A stretch of DNA of 64,000 bases from Sphingomonadales bacterium (GTDB lineage: Bacteria > Pseudomonadota > Alphaproteobacteria > Sphingomonadales > Sphingomonadaceae), in contig JAFLDB010000001.1 in NCBI GenBank assembly GCA_017302615.1, positions 124,001-188,000 on the forward strand, in the 5' to 3' direction. Shown piece after piece: positions 14,693-23,141 of this stretch. Made by a program: the position numbers and the translations under genes. The notes below the pieces were generated by a model, which worked only from the letters and a program-made list of their open reading frames with translations, made no database searches and was not told the origin of the DNA. Each line of letters starts with the position of its first letter. Position 1 is the stretch's first letter.

Positions 14693-15765
14693 ACGCGCCG
14701 TTCCGACCAGCCGCCGTGGTGCTGCGCTTGGCCGATCTGCGCGATCCCGGCGAAGTGGCAAGGCTGGAAGGCTATGTGGCCGACCATCCCGAAGGCACCG
14801 CCTTTCACCGTCCGGCCTGGCTGCTGGCCACGGCGCGCGGCACCGGCAATCGGGCGCTGGCGCTGGTCGCGGAAAGCGCCGGCAGCCTTGCCGGTTTTCT
14901 GCCGCTGACCGAAGCCCATTCCCCGCTGTTCGGGCGGGTGCTGGTCTCAACCGGTTTTGCGGTCGGCGGCGGGGTGCTGGCGCAGGATCGCCGCGCGGCC
15001 GATGCCTTGATCACCGCGGCCGAGGAACTGGCGCTGCGCCGGTCCTGCCCGGCGATCGAGCTGCGCGGCGGCGATCTGCCCGAAGCCCGCGATGGCTGGA
15101 AAGTCCGCACCGATTCGCATCTCGGCTTTGCCGCGCCGTTGGCCGGGGACGACGAAGCCCAGCTGAATTGGATCCCGCGCAAGCAGCGGGCCGAAGTGCG
15201 CAAGGGGTTGGCCACCGATCTGGAAGTGAGCGTGGGGCGCGGCGAGGCTGAGCGGCAGGCGCATTACGCGGTCTATGCCGAAAGCGTCCGCAACCTTGGC
15301 ACCCCGGTGTTCCCGCGCGCGCTGTTCGATGCCGTGCTGGACGGGTTTGGCGAGGCCGCCGACATCCTGACCGTGCGGCATCAGGGCCAGCCGGTCGCTT
15401 CGGTCCTCTCGCTGTATCACAAGGGTGCGGTGATGCCTTATTGGGGCGGCGGCACCTGGGATGCGCGGCGGCTGCGGGCCAATGACCGGATGTATTACGA
15501 ACTGATGCTCCACGCTCGTCGGCGCGGCTGCGACACGTTCGATTTCGGCCGATCGAAGACCGGCAGCGGCCCGGCCGATTTCAAGAAAAACTGGGGCTTT
15601 GAAGGCCGGCCACTGGCCTATGCCGGATGGACCGCACCCGGCGCGCCGCCACGCGATGCCGATCCGACCAGCGCCAGCAATTCGGCCAAGGTCGAGCTGT
15701 GGAAGCGCCTGCCGCTGGCCCTGGCCAACCGCATCGGCCCGCATATCGCCCGGGGGCTGGCGTGA
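14689..15765 (+). CDS. FemAB family protein, XrtA/PEP-CTERM system-associated
   Basis: A 358-residue double-GNAT FemAB-like acyltransferase. It shows WIPRKQRAEVRKG mid-protein, MPYWGGGTWDARRLRANDRMYYE, and the C-terminal FDFGRSKTGSGPADFKKNWGF typical of the family. FemAB enzymes transfer aminoacyl or acyl groups to a saccharide amine, which fits a step after the deacetylase encoded just upstream (inference). The GTG start overlaps the deacetylase stop by 4 nt, and its stop overlaps the glycosyltransferase start by 4 nt. Confidence 0.9.
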   Translation: MNAPFRPAAVVLRLADLRDPGEVARLEGYVADHPEGTAFHRPAWLLATARGTGNRALALVAESAGSLAGFLPLTEAHSPLFGRVLVSTGFAVGGGVLAQDRRAADALITAAEELALRRSCPAIELRGGDLPEARDGWKVRTDSHLGFAAPLAGDDEAQLNWIPRKQRAEVRKGLATDLEVSVGRGEAERQAHYAVYAESVRNLGTPVFPRALFDAVLDGFGEAADILTVRHQGQPVASVLSLYHKGAVMPYWGGGTWDARRLRANDRMYYELMLHARRRGCDTFDFGRSKTGSGPADFKKNWGFEGRPLAYAGWTAPGAPPRDADPTSASNSAKVELWKRLPLALANRIGPHIARGLA

Positions 15766-17000
15766 GCGATGAAGTCCTGTTCCTGGCCCACCGGATGCCG
15801 TTTCCGCCCGACCGGGGGGACAAGATCCGCTCCAGCCATATCCTGCGGCACCTGGCCAGCCTTGGCCCGGTTCATGTAGCGACCTTTGCCGAGGGCGAGG
15901 CCGATCTGGCGCAGGAGCCGGTTCTGGCCGGGCTTGCCGCCAGCCACTGCCTGGTCCGGCGCGGCAAGCCGCTGGCGCTGGCCGGGGCCGAAGCCCTGCT
16001 GCGCGGCCAGCCGGTCAGCCTGACCGCATTTCACGATCCGCGCGTTGCGGCCTATGTGGCAAAGGTGCTGGCCGAGCGGCCGATTGCCGCGATCTATGTC
16101 TTCTCCGGCCAGATGGGGCAGTATGTTCCGGCGGACTTCCCGGGGCGGGTGCTGCTCGATTTCGTCGATGTCGATTCGGCCAAGTTTGACGCCTATGCCG
16201 CCAGTGGCCATGGCCCGAGGGCCTGGATCGACGGGCGCGAAGGCCGCCTGCTGCGGGCCGAGGAACTGCGCCTGTCGCGCCGCGCCGATTGCATCCTGTT
16301 CGTCTCGGACGAGGAAGCCGCACTGTTCGCTTCGCGCCTTCCGGCAGCGGAGCGGGGGGATCATGATGTGCTGGCGCTGCGCAACGGGATCGACAGCGCC
16401 GGCTTCGATCCGGCTGCGGTAAAGCCGGAGCCGCGCCTGAACAGTCTGCCGGCACCGCGTCTGATCTTCACCGGGCAGATGGACTATGCCCCCAACATCG
16501 CTGCCGCAACGCGGGTGATCGAGAACCTGATGCCGCTGATCCGGGCGCGTTTGCCCGAGGCAAGCTTTCACGTCGTCGGGCGCAATCCGCCTGCTGCGCT
16601 GAAAGCGCTGGATGGCAGGAATGGCAGCCGTGTGTGGGGCGAAGTGCCAGACGTGCGGCCGTGGCTGGCCGGGGCCGATATCGCCCTTGTGCCGCTGGAA
16701 ATCGCGCGCGGAGTTCAGAACAAGGTGCTGGAGGCCATGGCCATGACCCTGCCGGTGGTGCTGACCGGCGGTGCGGCCACCGGGATCGGGGCCCAGCATG
16801 GTGAACACTTCCTGGTCGCCGACGAGGATCAGGGACTGGTCGACGCGATTGCCGCGCTGGCGGCCGATCCCGCCATGGCCGGGCGCCTTGGCCAGCAGGC
16901 CCGGCGCTTTGTGGTCAACCAGCTGGGCTGGGCCGCGACGCTGGCGCCGCTGGCCGGCCTGCTTGCACCGGTTGCGGGAGGACAACGCCATGCCGCCTGA
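15762..17000 (+). CDS. XrtA/PEP-CTERM system glycosyltransferase (GT4-like)
   Basis: GT-B fold glycosyltransferase of 412 residues. It begins EVLFLAHRMPFPPDRGDKIRS, the nucleotide-sugar transferase N-domain opening of this XrtA-linked family. The C-domain has FTGQMDYAPN, VVGRNPP, DVRPWLAGADIALVPL and RGVQNKVLEAMAM, including the conserved Glu of retaining GT4 enzymes. It should add a sugar to the growing repeat unit on the cytosolic face. GTG 15762 is the start; its stop overlaps the xrtA start by 11 nt. Confidence 0.9.
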   Translation: MSDEVLFLAHRMPFPPDRGDKIRSSHILRHLASLGPVHVATFAEGEADLAQEPVLAGLAASHCLVRRGKPLALAGAEALLRGQPVSLTAFHDPRVAAYVAKVLAERPIAAIYVFSGQMGQYVPADFPGRVLLDFVDVDSAKFDAYAASGHGPRAWIDGREGRLLRAEELRLSRRADCILFVSDEEAALFASRLPAAERGDHDVLALRNGIDSAGFDPAAVKPEPRLNSLPAPRLIFTGQMDYAPNIAAATRVIENLMPLIRARLPEASFHVVGRNPPAALKALDGRNGSRVWGEVPDVRPWLAGADIALVPLEIARGVQNKVLEAMAMTLPVVLTGGAATGIGAQHGEHFLVADEDQGLVDAIAALAADPAMAGRLGQQARRFVVNQLGWAATLAPLAGLLAPVAGGQRHAA

Positions 17001-18546
17001 AGTGGCCGCGCCTGCCCGCGCCGCAGCGGGCCTTGCCATCCCCGCGCCATGGCGCGCTGCCGCCCTGCGGCTCGCGCTGGTCTGGCTGGGGATCGTGATT
17101 GCCTTTTTGTGGGACTGGGCGGCGATGGCCGACCAGTGGTGGAACAGCTCTACCTACAACCATATCCTGCTGGTGCCGGTGATCATTACCTGGCTGGTAT
17201 GGCAGCGTTTGCCCGAAGTGCTGCAACTGGCCCCGCAGGCCTGCCGCTGGGCCTTGCTGCCATTCGCCCTGGCCGTGCTGGGCTGGGTGCTGGGCAGCTT
17301 TGCCGGGTTCAACCTCGTCAAGCAGGCCGCCGTGGTCGCCATGCTGCCGATCTCGGCGCTGCTGGTGCTGGGACCGCGGGCCTGCGCCGGGTTGCTGTTC
17401 CCGCTGGCCTATACCGTGTTTCTGGTGCCGTTCGGCGACGAACTGGTCCCGCCCTTGCAGATGATCACGGCCAAGCTGACGATCTGGCTGGTGGGCCTCA
17501 GCGGCATTCCCGCCGTGGTCGACGGGGTGTTCATCGATACGCCGGCCGGCCTGTTCGAAGTGGCGGAAGCCTGTTCGGGCGTGAAGTTTCTGATCGCGAT
17601 GATCGCGCTTGGCACCTTGGTGGCGAACATCGGTTTCCGCAGCCGGGGCCGCCGCGCCGCCTTCATGGCACTGTGCGTGGTGGTGCCGATCCTGGCCAAC
17701 GGGGTACGGGCCTGGGGGACGATCTTTGCTGCGCAGTATGTCGGTGCGGAAAAGGCCGCCGGGATCGATCACCTGATCTATGGCTGGATCTTCTTCGGCA
17801 TCGTGATTGCTGCCGTGCTGGGCCTGTCGTGGCGTCACTTCGACCGATCGCTGGACGAGGCGGCGATCGATCCGGCCGCGATCAATGCCGATCCGCGCCT
17901 GGCACGCTGGGAAGCGCCCGTGTCGCAGGTGCCGGGCCTGCTCGGCGTGGCAGCGGCGCTGGTGCTGGGCGGGATCGCCTGGTCGGTGGCCGGGCAAAAC
18001 CTCGCCGCGCCGATGCCCAGGCAGATATTCCTGCCCGAAGTGCCCGGCTGGCAGCGCACCGACTATGCCCCCGCCGCCCCATGGCAGCCGCGTGCCGATG
18101 GTTCGGAGCACAGCCTGCTCGGGTCCTATGTCGATGCACAGGGGCGTCGGGTTGACGTGTTTTTCGCGCTCTATGCCGCGCAGGGCGAAGGGCGCGAGCC
18201 GGGCGGGTTCGGCCAGGGGGCACTGACCCCTGGCGGCGACTGGTCCTGGGCCAGTGGCGGCCCGGCGATCGGGGCCGCGAAAAGCGAACGATTGATTCAC
18301 AACGGCACCACCGAACGCCTTGCCCTGACCTGGTACCGCAGTGGCGGGCTGCTCGGCGGCAGCAACCTGCGGCTCAAACTGGCCGGGATAGCCGATCACC
18401 TGCTGCTGCGCCCGCGCCCGGTATCGATGCTGATCCTCTCGGCCGAGCGCAGCCCCGCGGTTGACCCTGAAAGCGCGCTGCGGGACTTCCACGCGGCGCT
18501 GAGCGATCCCGGTCCGTGGATGGACCGGATCGCCGAACCCCGCTAA
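16990..18546 (+). CDS. xrtA: exosortase A fused to an EpsI domain
   Basis: Inner-membrane cysteine transpeptidase that recognises PEP-CTERM tails, 518 residues. About eight hydrophobic helices fill residues 25-285. The catalytic triad is visible: Cys195 in EACSGVKF, Arg240 in NGVRAWG and His261 in DHLIYGW. A further helix near 315-335 leads into a soluble EpsI-type domain (about 340-518; PEVPGWQRTDY, VDVFFALYAAQGEG, LTWYRSGG) presumed periplasmic. Fusion of exosortase and EpsI in one chain is a known arrangement in XrtA systems. No protein in this window ends in a PEP-CTERM tail, so substrates are encoded elsewhere. Confidence 0.93.
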   Translation: MPPEVAAPARAAAGLAIPAPWRAAALRLALVWLGIVIAFLWDWAAMADQWWNSSTYNHILLVPVIITWLVWQRLPEVLQLAPQACRWALLPFALAVLGWVLGSFAGFNLVKQAAVVAMLPISALLVLGPRACAGLLFPLAYTVFLVPFGDELVPPLQMITAKLTIWLVGLSGIPAVVDGVFIDTPAGLFEVAEACSGVKFLIAMIALGTLVANIGFRSRGRRAAFMALCVVVPILANGVRAWGTIFAAQYVGAEKAAGIDHLIYGWIFFGIVIAAVLGLSWRHFDRSLDEAAIDPAAINADPRLARWEAPVSQVPGLLGVAAALVLGGIAWSVAGQNLAAPMPRQIFLPEVPGWQRTDYAPAAPWQPRADGSEHSLLGSYVDAQGRRVDVFFALYAAQGEGREPGGFGQGALTPGGDWSWASGGPAIGAAKSERLIHNGTTERLALTWYRSGGLLGGSNLRLKLAGIADHLLLRPRPVSMLILSAERSPAVDPESALRDFHAALSDPGPWMDRIAEPR

Positions 18547-18557
18547 GCGCTTAGCCA

Positions 18558-20450
<1,893 letters not shown>

Positions 20451-20474
20451 CGGCATCCTGAGCCCAAATGAAGA

Positions 20475-20498
20475 CGGCCCCGGCTTTCGCCGGGGCCG
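20475..20498 (-). terminator. rho-independent-type hairpin, probably bidirectional
   Basis: CGGCCCCGGC-GAAA-GCCGGGGCCG on the minus strand: a perfect 10-bp stem with a GNRA tetraloop, followed by TCTTCATTT. It lies 20 bp past the 13-codon ORF and 24 bp past the amidotransferase stop, so it can end both transcripts; the loop and T-content favour minus-strand use. Confidence 0.7.
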
Positions 20499-20518
20499 CT
20501 CAAGCATCTCAGCCTCGA

Positions 20519-20560
20519 TTAACGGCGGCCGAAAATGCGCTCCAGATATTCCCAAACCAT
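20519..20560 (-). CDS. candidate 13-residue micropeptide MVWEYLERIFGRR
   Basis: ATG-GTT-TGG... reads 13 codons to TAA. The Shine-Dalgarno AGGAGA sits 6-7 nt before the ATG, better than that of most long genes here. A strong hairpin follows 20 bp after the stop, and a promoter-like sequence lies about 50 bp upstream. The peptide alternates bulky hydrophobic (V, W, Y, L, I, F) and charged (E, R) residues and could form an amphipathic helix with a basic end. It is not a leader peptide for a downstream gene, since no minus-strand gene follows. I do not recognise it; expression and conservation are untested. Confidence 0.45.
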   Translation of the reverse strand: MVWEYLERIFGRR

Positions 20561-20608
20561 GCGCGTTCTCCTGCAGGTTGAACGATTTAAAGGCCGAGTT
20601 GCTCCTTT

Positions 20609-20636
20609 AGGATAACCAATTCTTAACCAATAACAA
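20609..20636 (-). promoter_or_regulatory. candidate promoter of the micropeptide unit, with CtrA-like half-sites
   Basis: On the minus strand TTGTTA (20636-20631) and TATCCT (20614-20609) are spaced 16 nt, each matching 4 of 6 consensus bases. TTAA-N7-TTAT (20626-20612) falls in the spacer and resembles, with one mismatch, the alphaproteobacterial CtrA box TTAA-N7-TTAA. Confidence 0.3.
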
Positions 20637-20760
20637 GCAGGAAAATTTAACCATTTGCTTCGGCAGATTTGGGGAAAACCCCATTTTAATCAATGAAATG
20701 CGCCGATATCCTGACATCGCGCAGGAATCGCGTCGACCGGCCTGGAGCCAGTCCGGTCGG

Positions 20761-20782
20761 AAAAAAGGGTTGAATTTCAACC
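20761..20782 (-). terminator. rho-independent terminator of the EAL gene
   Basis: Minus strand GGTTGAA-A-TTCAACC followed directly by CTTTTTT, about 47 bp after the stop of the CHASE2/EAL gene. The hairpin plus six-T run is the clearest intrinsic terminator in the window. Confidence 0.75.
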
Positions 20783-20828: not shown

Positions 20829-23141
20829 TCAGGCGGCCAAGGTCTTGCCGCCCGATTCCATGAGCGTGGCCAGCGCATCGAGTTGCATCGGCCGGGCCAG
20901 ATAATAGCCCTGGGCCACGTCGCAACCGATCACGCGGAGCAGTTCGAGGGTTTCAGGATCCTCGATCCCCTCGGCCACGACCCGCCGGCCGAGGCCGTGG
21001 GCGAGTTCAATCGTCGATTCCACCAGCAGCAGGTCGCTGGCGCTGGTCGGCAGAGATGCGACAAAACGACGGTCGATCTTGATTTCCTGGCACGGGACCG
21101 AGCGCAGGTATTCCAGCGTGGCGTTGCCGGTGCCGTAATCGTCGATCGACAGTTCGATCCCGTTGGCGGCAATCGCGGAGAGGTTGGCGGCCACTGCGGC
21201 CTGATCGCTGAACGGCGCGGATTCGGTCACTTCCAGCGTCAGGTTGCGGGCCGGGAAGCCATTGCGGATAAGAATCTCGACGATCTGGCCCGGCAACTGC
21301 GGCGTTTCCAGCATGCTAGCGGAAAGATTCACCCCAAGCCGGAACCCCGGATCGATCGCCAGCAGAGGCCGGATGGCCTTCGTGGCCACATCCAGCACGT
21401 GCAGCGTCAGGCGCTTGATCCGGTTGTGCTCCTCGGCGGAAAGGACGAACGCTTCGGGCGAAATGGCGCCGCGCTGCGGGTGCTGCCAACGGACCAGCGC
21501 CTCAGCCCCGCAGACCTTGTCGGTCTTGAGGCTGTACTGCGGTTGATAGGCAACCCAGATATCGCCCCCGTCAATGGCAGCATCAAGCTCGCTCATCAGC
21601 GAAAGCGCCCAGGCGCTGTCGGCCTCGTTCTCGTCCTGGTTGAAGGTAACAAGCAGGTGCTTGGCGCCAGCGATGTCTGCCGCCTGGAGAGCGCGCCCGA
21701 TCCGGTTGGTGATCGGCCGTTCAAGATTGGCATCAACCCCGAACACCACCGCAATATCCAGCTTGCGCCCACGCAGTTCGAAATGACTTTCCACCAGGCG
21801 TGAAAGCCCGGTCAGATGGTCGGTCATTTCGGCCTGGTTGAGGGGCGGTACCAGCCAATAGAGCACATCTTCGGCCTGATAGAAGGTGACCCGGTCCTGA
21901 GGGAGACTGAGCCGCCGGGTCAGTTCCCCGATCAGTTCATGCTCCACCGGTGTCGGGAAGCTGGCGCAGATTGCCGCATAGTTGCGAATCCGCATCGCGA
22001 CGAGTTGAGACCCTTCGGCCTGCGGATCCTCGCGCAACGCAGCCAGGTTGGGCAGCAGCGACCCGGCATGGCGATAGCGCGCCTCGTTAAGATCTCGCCA
22101 TGAGCTGTAACGGTAGGCGACAATCCCGAACATCAGGAGGGCAGGGAAGACGTCGGCGGTGATGAACAGCCGATCCATTGCAAAGGGGAGGGCCACGCTG
22201 CCAACCAGGGCAGCTGCTATGACGATCCGGGCCTGCCTGCGGTTGCGGCTTGCCATCAGCGCCAGCGAGAGAAGCGTGGCGAGGACGATGCCGGGGACCC
22301 AGCCAACCTTGTTGGGGTTGCCCTCCTTGAGTGTCTGCGCACCTATGGCGTGAACATAGACACCCGGAAACCAGCCCTGCGGAAAGATCTGGACGTCGTC
22401 CGGGTTCTCGCGTGTGGTTACGCCTACCAGCAGATCCTTGCCCTTCAGCCGATCAGCCGGGACCCGCCCTTCCAGAATGTCGACGAGGCTGATGGTGGGG
22501 ACCGAAGCGACCTGGATCGACCAGTCGGGCCGATAACGCTGATCCGGTTCACCTTCGAAATTGGCAATGCTGGCGGAAACGGATGGAACGCGCTTTCCGT
22601 CGATTTCCGTCGCAAAGATAAGTTCGGCCGAAAGCCCCAGTGGCGTTGCCGCCCCGTTCAGCGAGCGAACATCGGTATGCGGTCGGAAATCCGGGTGCGG
22701 CAGGATTACTTCCCGCGCCTCGGAGCCGGAACGCCGCCGGAAATACATGGTTCCGGCAAAGGCCTGCCCATTGTGCCGCTGAAGCGCCTCTGCGAATTCG
22801 CGGTCGCCCTCGGGATCGATCGGCAGCGAGAAGACTTCGTCGAAGTAGACGCTCTTGGCGCCGGCTGCGAAGACCTTATCGAGCAATTGCGCGTTGTATG
22901 CGCGCGAATAGGTGCTGCTGCCGAGAGCCTCGACGGTCTTGTCGTCGATCCCGATAACCACCACCGAACCATCAGCCGGGCGGGCAACCACCTGGTTCCG
23001 CAGACCCCGGTAAAAGTCCTCCAGTGGGTAGGCCGGGCCGACAACGGCAATAATCACACAGACGATCAGGGCCTGCACCAGGATCCGTGTCCTGGTCAGC
23101 TTCTTGCGGTTTTTCCCGCGACGCTTGAACGGCCAAATCAC
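20829..23141 (-). CDS. CHASE2 - degenerate GGDEF - EAL cyclic-di-GMP phosphodiesterase
   Basis: Membrane signalling protein, 770 residues. An N-terminal helix (about 21-41) leads to a periplasmic CHASE2 sensor domain (about 45-275; VVVIGIDDKTVEALG, SVYFDEVFS). Two to three helices (about 280-345) and a GGDEF-like domain without the GGDEF signature come next, then an EAL domain with intact key residues: E547-A-L in GAEALVRW, NLSASML, LEVTES, DDYGTGNATL, IKIDRRF and EGIED. It should hydrolyse c-di-GMP. Its place beside the exopolysaccharide locus suggests control of polymer output (inference). The terminator at 20761-20782 ends the transcript. Confidence 0.9.
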   Translation of the reverse strand: MIWPFKRRGKNRKKLTRTRILVQALIVCVIIAVVGPAYPLEDFYRGLRNQVVARPADGSVVVIGIDDKTVEALGSSTYSRAYNAQLLDKVFAAGAKSVYFDEVFSLPIDPEGDREFAEALQRHNGQAFAGTMYFRRRSGSEAREVILPHPDFRPHTDVRSLNGAATPLGLSAELIFATEIDGKRVPSVSASIANFEGEPDQRYRPDWSIQVASVPTISLVDILEGRVPADRLKGKDLLVGVTTRENPDDVQIFPQGWFPGVYVHAIGAQTLKEGNPNKVGWVPGIVLATLLSLALMASRNRRQARIVIAAALVGSVALPFAMDRLFITADVFPALLMFGIVAYRYSSWRDLNEARYRHAGSLLPNLAALREDPQAEGSQLVAMRIRNYAAICASFPTPVEHELIGELTRRLSLPQDRVTFYQAEDVLYWLVPPLNQAEMTDHLTGLSRLVESHFELRGRKLDIAVVFGVDANLERPITNRIGRALQAADIAGAKHLLVTFNQDENEADSAWALSLMSELDAAIDGGDIWVAYQPQYSLKTDKVCGAEALVRWQHPQRGAISPEAFVLSAEEHNRIKRLTLHVLDVATKAIRPLLAIDPGFRLGVNLSASMLETPQLPGQIVEILIRNGFPARNLTLEVTESAPFSDQAAVAANLSAIAANGIELSIDDYGTGNATLEYLRSVPCQEIKIDRRFVASLPTSASDLLLVESTIELAHGLGRRVVAEGIEDPETLELLRVIGCDVAQGYYLARPMQLDALATLMESGGKTLAA

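Follow-up and report, generated by a model that had tools for sequence, protein, structure and literature searches.

The question raised by this locus is whether an isolated reading frame of 13 codons, MVWEYLERIFGRR, is a gene at all and, if so, on what its product acts. The frame lies on the minus strand of the window, by which we mean the whole stretch of 64,000 nucleotides that was analyzed, and it was missed by annotation.

The micro-gene in the window

The features considered below are as follows, with positions given in the window.
18558..20450, plus strand: amidotransferase of the XrtA/PEP-CTERM system (TIGR03108), the convergent neighbor, inconstant in homologous loci
20474..20499, minus strand: terminator hairpin with a GAAA loop and 11 pairs (hairpin scan)
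20519..20560, minus strand: micro-ORF MVWEYLERIFGRR, 13 codons plus TAA, a member of the W-rich micropeptide family
20567..20572, minus strand: Shine-Dalgarno (SD) sequence AGGAGA, aligning with homologues
20609..20614, minus strand: putative -10 element TATCCT; homologues have TAnnnT at the same position
20612..20626, minus strand: CtrA-box-like TTAA-N7-TTAT, 7/8 matches to TTAA-N7-TTAA
20631..20636, minus strand: -35-like TTGTTA, 16 nt before the -10; TTGCAT or TTGCAA in homologues
20647..20653, minus strand: upstream half-site TGGTTAA, recurring at a similar position in several homologues
20768..20782, minus strand: terminator-like hairpin just past the CHASE2-EAL stop, separating that gene from the micro-gene
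20829..23141, minus strand: CHASE2-EAL protein of 770 aa, the upstream putative partner gene, with intact EAL catalytic motifs and predicted to be an active c-di-GMP phosphodiesterase

The micro-ORF runs from an ATG at 20560 to a TAA at 20519 (ATG GTT TGG GAA TAT CTG GAG CGC ATT TTC GGC CGC CGT TAA), 268 nt behind the EAL stop and on the same strand, a position within that defined for the family. Most of the signals described in the first-pass annotation were found again. The AGGAGA (20572-20567) is a strong SD and well spaced, lying 6 nt ahead of the ATG, and the promoter-like pair placed about 50 nt upstream is TTGTTA-N16-TATCCT at 20636-20609, a pair absent from the sigma-70 scan list. The GAAA hairpin is likewise present at 20499-20474, although 11 pairs rather than 10 were counted, and its T-run is weak (CTTCATTT). 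If transcription starts near 20602, as predicted, the transcript would be about 133 nt long, in agreement with the earlier estimate of about 130 nt. An EcfG-type promoter (GGAGC-N16-CGTT) between the -10 and the ATG was seen in the window only, the homologues being without it, and was dropped. The neighboring plus-strand region, 15627-20450, is an ordinary XrtA/PEP-CTERM exopolysaccharide cluster with a TIGR03087 glycosyltransferase, an exosortase A-EpsI domain fusion and the TIGR03108 amidotransferase.

Conservation of the reading frame

A single SD with a W-rich micro-ORF, taken alone, could arise by chance (shuffled regions of 560 nt yield one in about 4% of cases), while its conservation at a syntenic place is not chance. 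DNA BLAST of the region against 61 relatives returned no homologue, only terminator hairpins and chance matches; homologues were located by synteny (the place behind CHASE2-EAL orthologues), by a covariance model and by a peptide profile. The near relatives examined carry MTWSIYESLRSWFGRS, MIWSWLERNFGRR, MGVWSWLEKAFGSR, MWAWLIKGFGER, MWEWLREVVTGRR and others as syntenic micro-ORFs, each with an SD, a TTGCAT-N16-TAnnnT promoter and a terminator, and the covariance model of the region gave full-length matches in other genera. Weak matches of this model that were limited to its positions ~115-182 were mostly terminators rather than homologues and were set aside. In distant clades, MYSWLWGGLGR, MNKELWGGGWWGGGL, MAKRTKQPVRGFWDWLLGGGWSN, MFKIWDYLFK and MLRFLFGY (8 aa) occupy the same place, and CHASE2-EAL orthologues with as little as about 31% identity still have an SD and a micro-ORF behind them.

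As found, the family comprises micro-ORFs of 8-41 codons belonging to one orthologous CHASE2-EAL group in at least 26 genera (by genus codes) of a single GTDB family of the Sphingomonadales. The peptides have a median length of 16 aa, a mean net charge of +1.6 and a core rich in W, F and L, most commonly GFWDWL-GGG; many have Gly-rich tails, and divergence between clades is strong. Trp makes up 12.7% of the residues after Met, a value that should be read knowing that detection by eye favored W and that the accepted list includes W-free members. On plasmid NZ_CP142674.1 of Qipengyuania sp. HL-TH1, MWRWWNELFGSR is accompanied by box and terminator, at a place where the (incomplete) gene table has no gene. 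A back-translated pattern also matched unrelated organisms in genome and viral collections, and these matches were taken as chance.

For an objective count, we used a rule that called for an ATG, an SD, 8-45 codons, at least 6% W and a distance of no more than 420 nt from the EAL stop. Micro-ORFs of this kind were found in 102 of 137 CHASE2-EAL regions; the opposite strand gave 5, and dinucleotide shuffles gave 5.7 +/- 2.5. The later statistics rest on 113 loci accepted by eye, plus MLRFLFGY. By a strict rule, terminator-like hairpins stand behind 44 of the 113 ORFs (3 after shuffling). The pN/pS ratio is 0.59 in frame (26 pairs, p = 1e-5, which is only approximate since the binomial test assumes independent substitutions) versus 1.00 and 1.20 in the other two frames. 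Pairs were picked by similarity of the EAL tail, not by peptide identity, and each sequence was used once; the pair for the window (L051/L055) gave 5.0 synonymous and 6.0 nonsynonymous. The frame of the micro-ORF is thus under purifying selection across the family.

Conservation of the frame and of the SD in relatives, the test set in advance by the first-pass annotation, was therefore found on examination, and its real stand-alone micropeptide gene is borne out by this syntenic conservation and by the in-frame selection. A chance ORF might have been suspected from the DNA BLAST result, but frame, SD and promoter are conserved at the syntenic place in relatives; that reading is refuted, and we leave it next to no probability.

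Some individual loci merit separate mention. In L181 (G339:C1:2157620-2158520), the apparent start of a transposase stands about 130 nt past the EAL stop, at the expected micropeptide site, and the close relative L184 carries MGWFWRWMGGGGSGNGGAEA; L164 is also without a micropeptide, and the absences in L181 and L164 look like recent losses. The syntenic place in L221 is taken by MLGNIGGRPKGG, which has no aromatic residues, with promoter and leader intact, and may represent a decaying or divergent member. L072-L079 and L207-L230 have a 5' leader hairpin (GCCGC...GCGGC) between promoter and SD, with a few pairs changed on both sides, followed by a near-invariant GTTCACATGGGGAA; this hairpin might act in stability or in regulation. 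About 100 nt of extra sequence lie between ORF and hairpin in L071, L072, L075, L079 and their relatives. The ORF in this clade is thus not followed at once by its terminator, and the transcript may be longer.

It could also be that the transcript works as a small RNA, alone or in a dual role, and that the ORF matters little. The predicted molecule of about 133 nt, with its terminator and small 5' hairpin, folds better than shuffles (z -2.8 for the window sequence, mainly through the terminator and long-range pairing). In-frame selection and the conserved SD, however, speak against this reading. Outside the ORF, only promoter, SD, small 5' hairpin and terminator are conserved and the remaining sequence is variable, which leaves the dual-function RNA proposed earlier unsupported. 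Nothing in Rfam exceeded its gathering score, the best hit being BjrC68 (27.1 vs 39 bits) over the terminator region. We consider an RNA function improbable.

The size, the Trp codons and a terminator immediately after the ORF would also suit a type I toxin, or else an attenuator or leader peptide. Yet no minus-strand gene follows the micro-ORF; what comes next is the amidotransferase, which is convergent and ends at 20450, and the gene at this position depends on the genus. An attenuator leader is disfavored on this ground, as had been said from the window sequence. As for a toxin, most of the peptides lack the length needed to cross a membrane, and many end in Gly-rich tails. Together, these possibilities are very improbable.

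Linkage to the CHASE2-EAL enzyme and the promoter box

The gene downstream of the micro-gene differs in other genera (RecG-like, aminotransferase-like, RecN-like or dehydrogenase-like, as judged by eye from translated ends), while the upstream gene in their matching loci is an EAL protein, as in the window. Since the convergent neighbor varies and the upstream CHASE2-EAL gene is constant, the link is to the phosphodiesterase, and the association with the exopolysaccharide locus, suggested earlier, is incidental. In an alignment of the EAL domain to MorA (4rnh), the motifs EAL, VNLSA, EVTES, DDYGTG, IKID and AEGIED are in place, and motifs outside the set used to select the rows are found in 69-70 of 70 peptide-linked enzymes. 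As the catalytic motifs are kept, the peptide-linked CHASE2-EAL protein is likely an active c-di-GMP phosphodiesterase.

When the peptide profile was run in all six frames against 197 genomes of the order, 22 matches reached E ~1e-3 or better, and all 22 lie directly behind a CHASE2-EAL gene, as do two weaker matches (L273 and L276). It should be considered that the profile was built from 35 longer members, all found beside EAL genes, and is blind to the shortest members of the family; the search itself imposed no EAL neighbor. Among 241 genomes of the class, the peptide search found nothing significant, and the candidate loci had no EAL match. In a phylogeny of 89 EAL proteins, peptide presence needs 4 changes as compared to 19.9 when shuffled, and 19 peptide-less CHASE2-EAL paralogues form one clade; two rows with very long branches (L139 and L319) are apparently mistranslated, and the argument does not rest on them. 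One genome, G193, has two CHASE2-EAL enzymes, each with its own peptide (L211 and L235).

The promoter points to CtrA. TTAA-N7-TTAA with at most one mismatch, sought in the segment 115-25 nt before the ATG, occurs in 96 of the 113 loci (8.6 in shuffles) and in 1 of 22 paralogue regions, and a gap of 7 yields 96 boxes where any other gap yields 49 at most. In the family, the box is placed between, or overlapping, the -35 and -10. The window box, TTAAgaattggTTAT, is imperfect at 7/8 and lies at the level counted for the family (at least 7/8). TTAA-N7-TTAAC is the ChIP-derived CtrA motif of Hyphomonas and agrees with that of other species (PMC7200025), the Caulobacter CtrA box is TTAA-N7-TTAA, with one-mismatch sites being functional there (PMC11264516), and CckA-ChpT-CtrA is retained in Sphingomonadales (PMC2877005). 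In Sphingomonas, CtrA is a reported regulator of motility, EPS and c-di-GMP signaling and turnover (PMC8921679). The box of the micro-gene matches the CtrA consensus, and the micropeptide is probably expressed under CtrA.

Well supported, then, is a micropeptide gene with a conserved coding ORF, SD, promoter box and, often, terminator, found exclusively with one phosphodiesterase clade; transcription, translation, CtrA control, physical interaction and an effect on activity are what we infer from it. As the peptide family tracks one phosphodiesterase across a bacterial family, it probably adjusts that enzyme, even though a conserved neighbor does not, by itself, prove function on that neighbor. 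We propose a small monocistronic gene, with its own promoter and CtrA-type box, whose product would be a micropeptide of 13 residues, Trp among them, dedicated as a partner to the CHASE2-EAL phosphodiesterase encoded just upstream. The peptide would most likely bind this membrane protein, or the adjoining face of the inner membrane, and so raise or lower c-di-GMP hydrolysis. CtrA, reflecting motility and cell-cycle state, could thereby set phosphodiesterase output with the amount of enzyme unchanged. That the CtrA-boxed micropeptide partners and tunes its neighbor in this way is, in our judgment, an evenly balanced proposition.

The same gene could be a real CtrA-controlled peptide with another target, such as the inner membrane, a component of the flagellum or pilus, or a protease, its adjacency to CHASE2-EAL reflecting shared regulation or timing. 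The W/F/L-rich, positively charged peptides agree with this, as do the gene's own promoter box and the terminator between the two genes in the window. The searches of the 197 and 241 genomes, however, revealed no copy at a significant E-value apart from a CHASE2-EAL gene, the two enzymes of G193 have a peptide each, and peptide presence tracks the EAL tree. A different target is possible but doubtful. A general amphipathic membrane helix was considered and is not supported, helical amphipathicity being above shuffles in only one of four clades (the WDYLF clade); the clade of the window is no better than shuffles, which leaves the membrane-active micropeptide of the first-pass annotation unsupported.

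The sensor domain CHASE2 presumably faces outward, and an exported or released peptide could be the ligand of the neighbor's extracytoplasmic CHASE2 sensor, an autocrine signal with clade-specific sequences. The presence of one peptide per receptor and the strong diversification between clades would suit such a signal, as would a slight partial correlation of peptide and CHASE2 distances (0.156). The correlation with EAL is, however, equally strong (0.189), no signal peptide or exporter was seen, and the CtrA-type control suggests cell-cycle use; we regard a released ligand as unlikely. Peptide distance relates about equally to CHASE2, the middle region and EAL and so does not point to a site of contact. 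Returning to the micropeptide as a partner of its enzyme, the wider claim, that one micropeptide ligand per enzyme forms a new class controlling c-di-GMP phosphodiesterases across a bacterial family, whether as cytoplasmic CtrA-timed tuners or as released CHASE2 signals, may in our estimation equally hold or fail.

It is an open question in c-di-GMP signaling how a cell controls each of its many phosphodiesterases individually. If true, control of each enzyme by a very short peptide of its own, probably programmed by CtrA, would answer this in a new way that is easy to test, and in sphingomonads it would tie c-di-GMP to the state of the cell cycle. Genes of 8-15 codons would moreover prove to be kept by selection across a family, below annotation cut-offs.

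Comparison with known systems

A Pfam and NCBIfam HMM scan of six of the longest members (29-41 aa) gave no match at E <= 10. We found no paper on such a micropeptide in the open-licence literature, and none of its kind in the CtrA papers searched. Small proteins that partner membrane enzymes are a known kind of system; the micropeptide family, its size range and its link to a c-di-GMP enzyme appear new.

In MgrB-PhoQ, CydX-cytochrome bd and AcrZ-AcrB, tiny proteins from their own or a neighboring gene tune one larger membrane protein. Such partners have about 30-50 aa and one transmembrane helix, and are usually missed by annotation. The micropeptide resembles them in being tiny, overlooked by annotation and encoded by its own gene beside a larger membrane protein with which it is presumed to interact, but differs in being 8-41 aa long, W/G-rich and usually too short for a membrane span, and in having a c-di-GMP phosphodiesterase as its neighbor. 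BluF (YcgF) of E. coli, a degenerate EAL protein tied to the small proteins YcgZ, YmgA and YmgB (~80-90 aa), offers a similar functional link between an EAL-type protein and very small proteins, although the latter are unrelated in sequence to the micropeptide and the EAL catalytic motifs are intact here. Transcription-attenuator leaders have the regulated gene directly downstream, where the micro-gene has a convergent one. The TTAA-N7-TTAA promoter box is shared with the CtrA regulon, to which the micro-gene may belong. Finally, peTrpL of Sinorhizobium meliloti is a 14-aa trans-acting leader peptide (PMC7298713, PMC10117765). Of similar length to the micropeptide, it shows that a 14-aa alphaproteobacterial peptide can act in trans; peTrpL, however, derives from a trp attenuator, whereas the micro-gene has a promoter to itself, precedes no gene on its strand and is linked differently.
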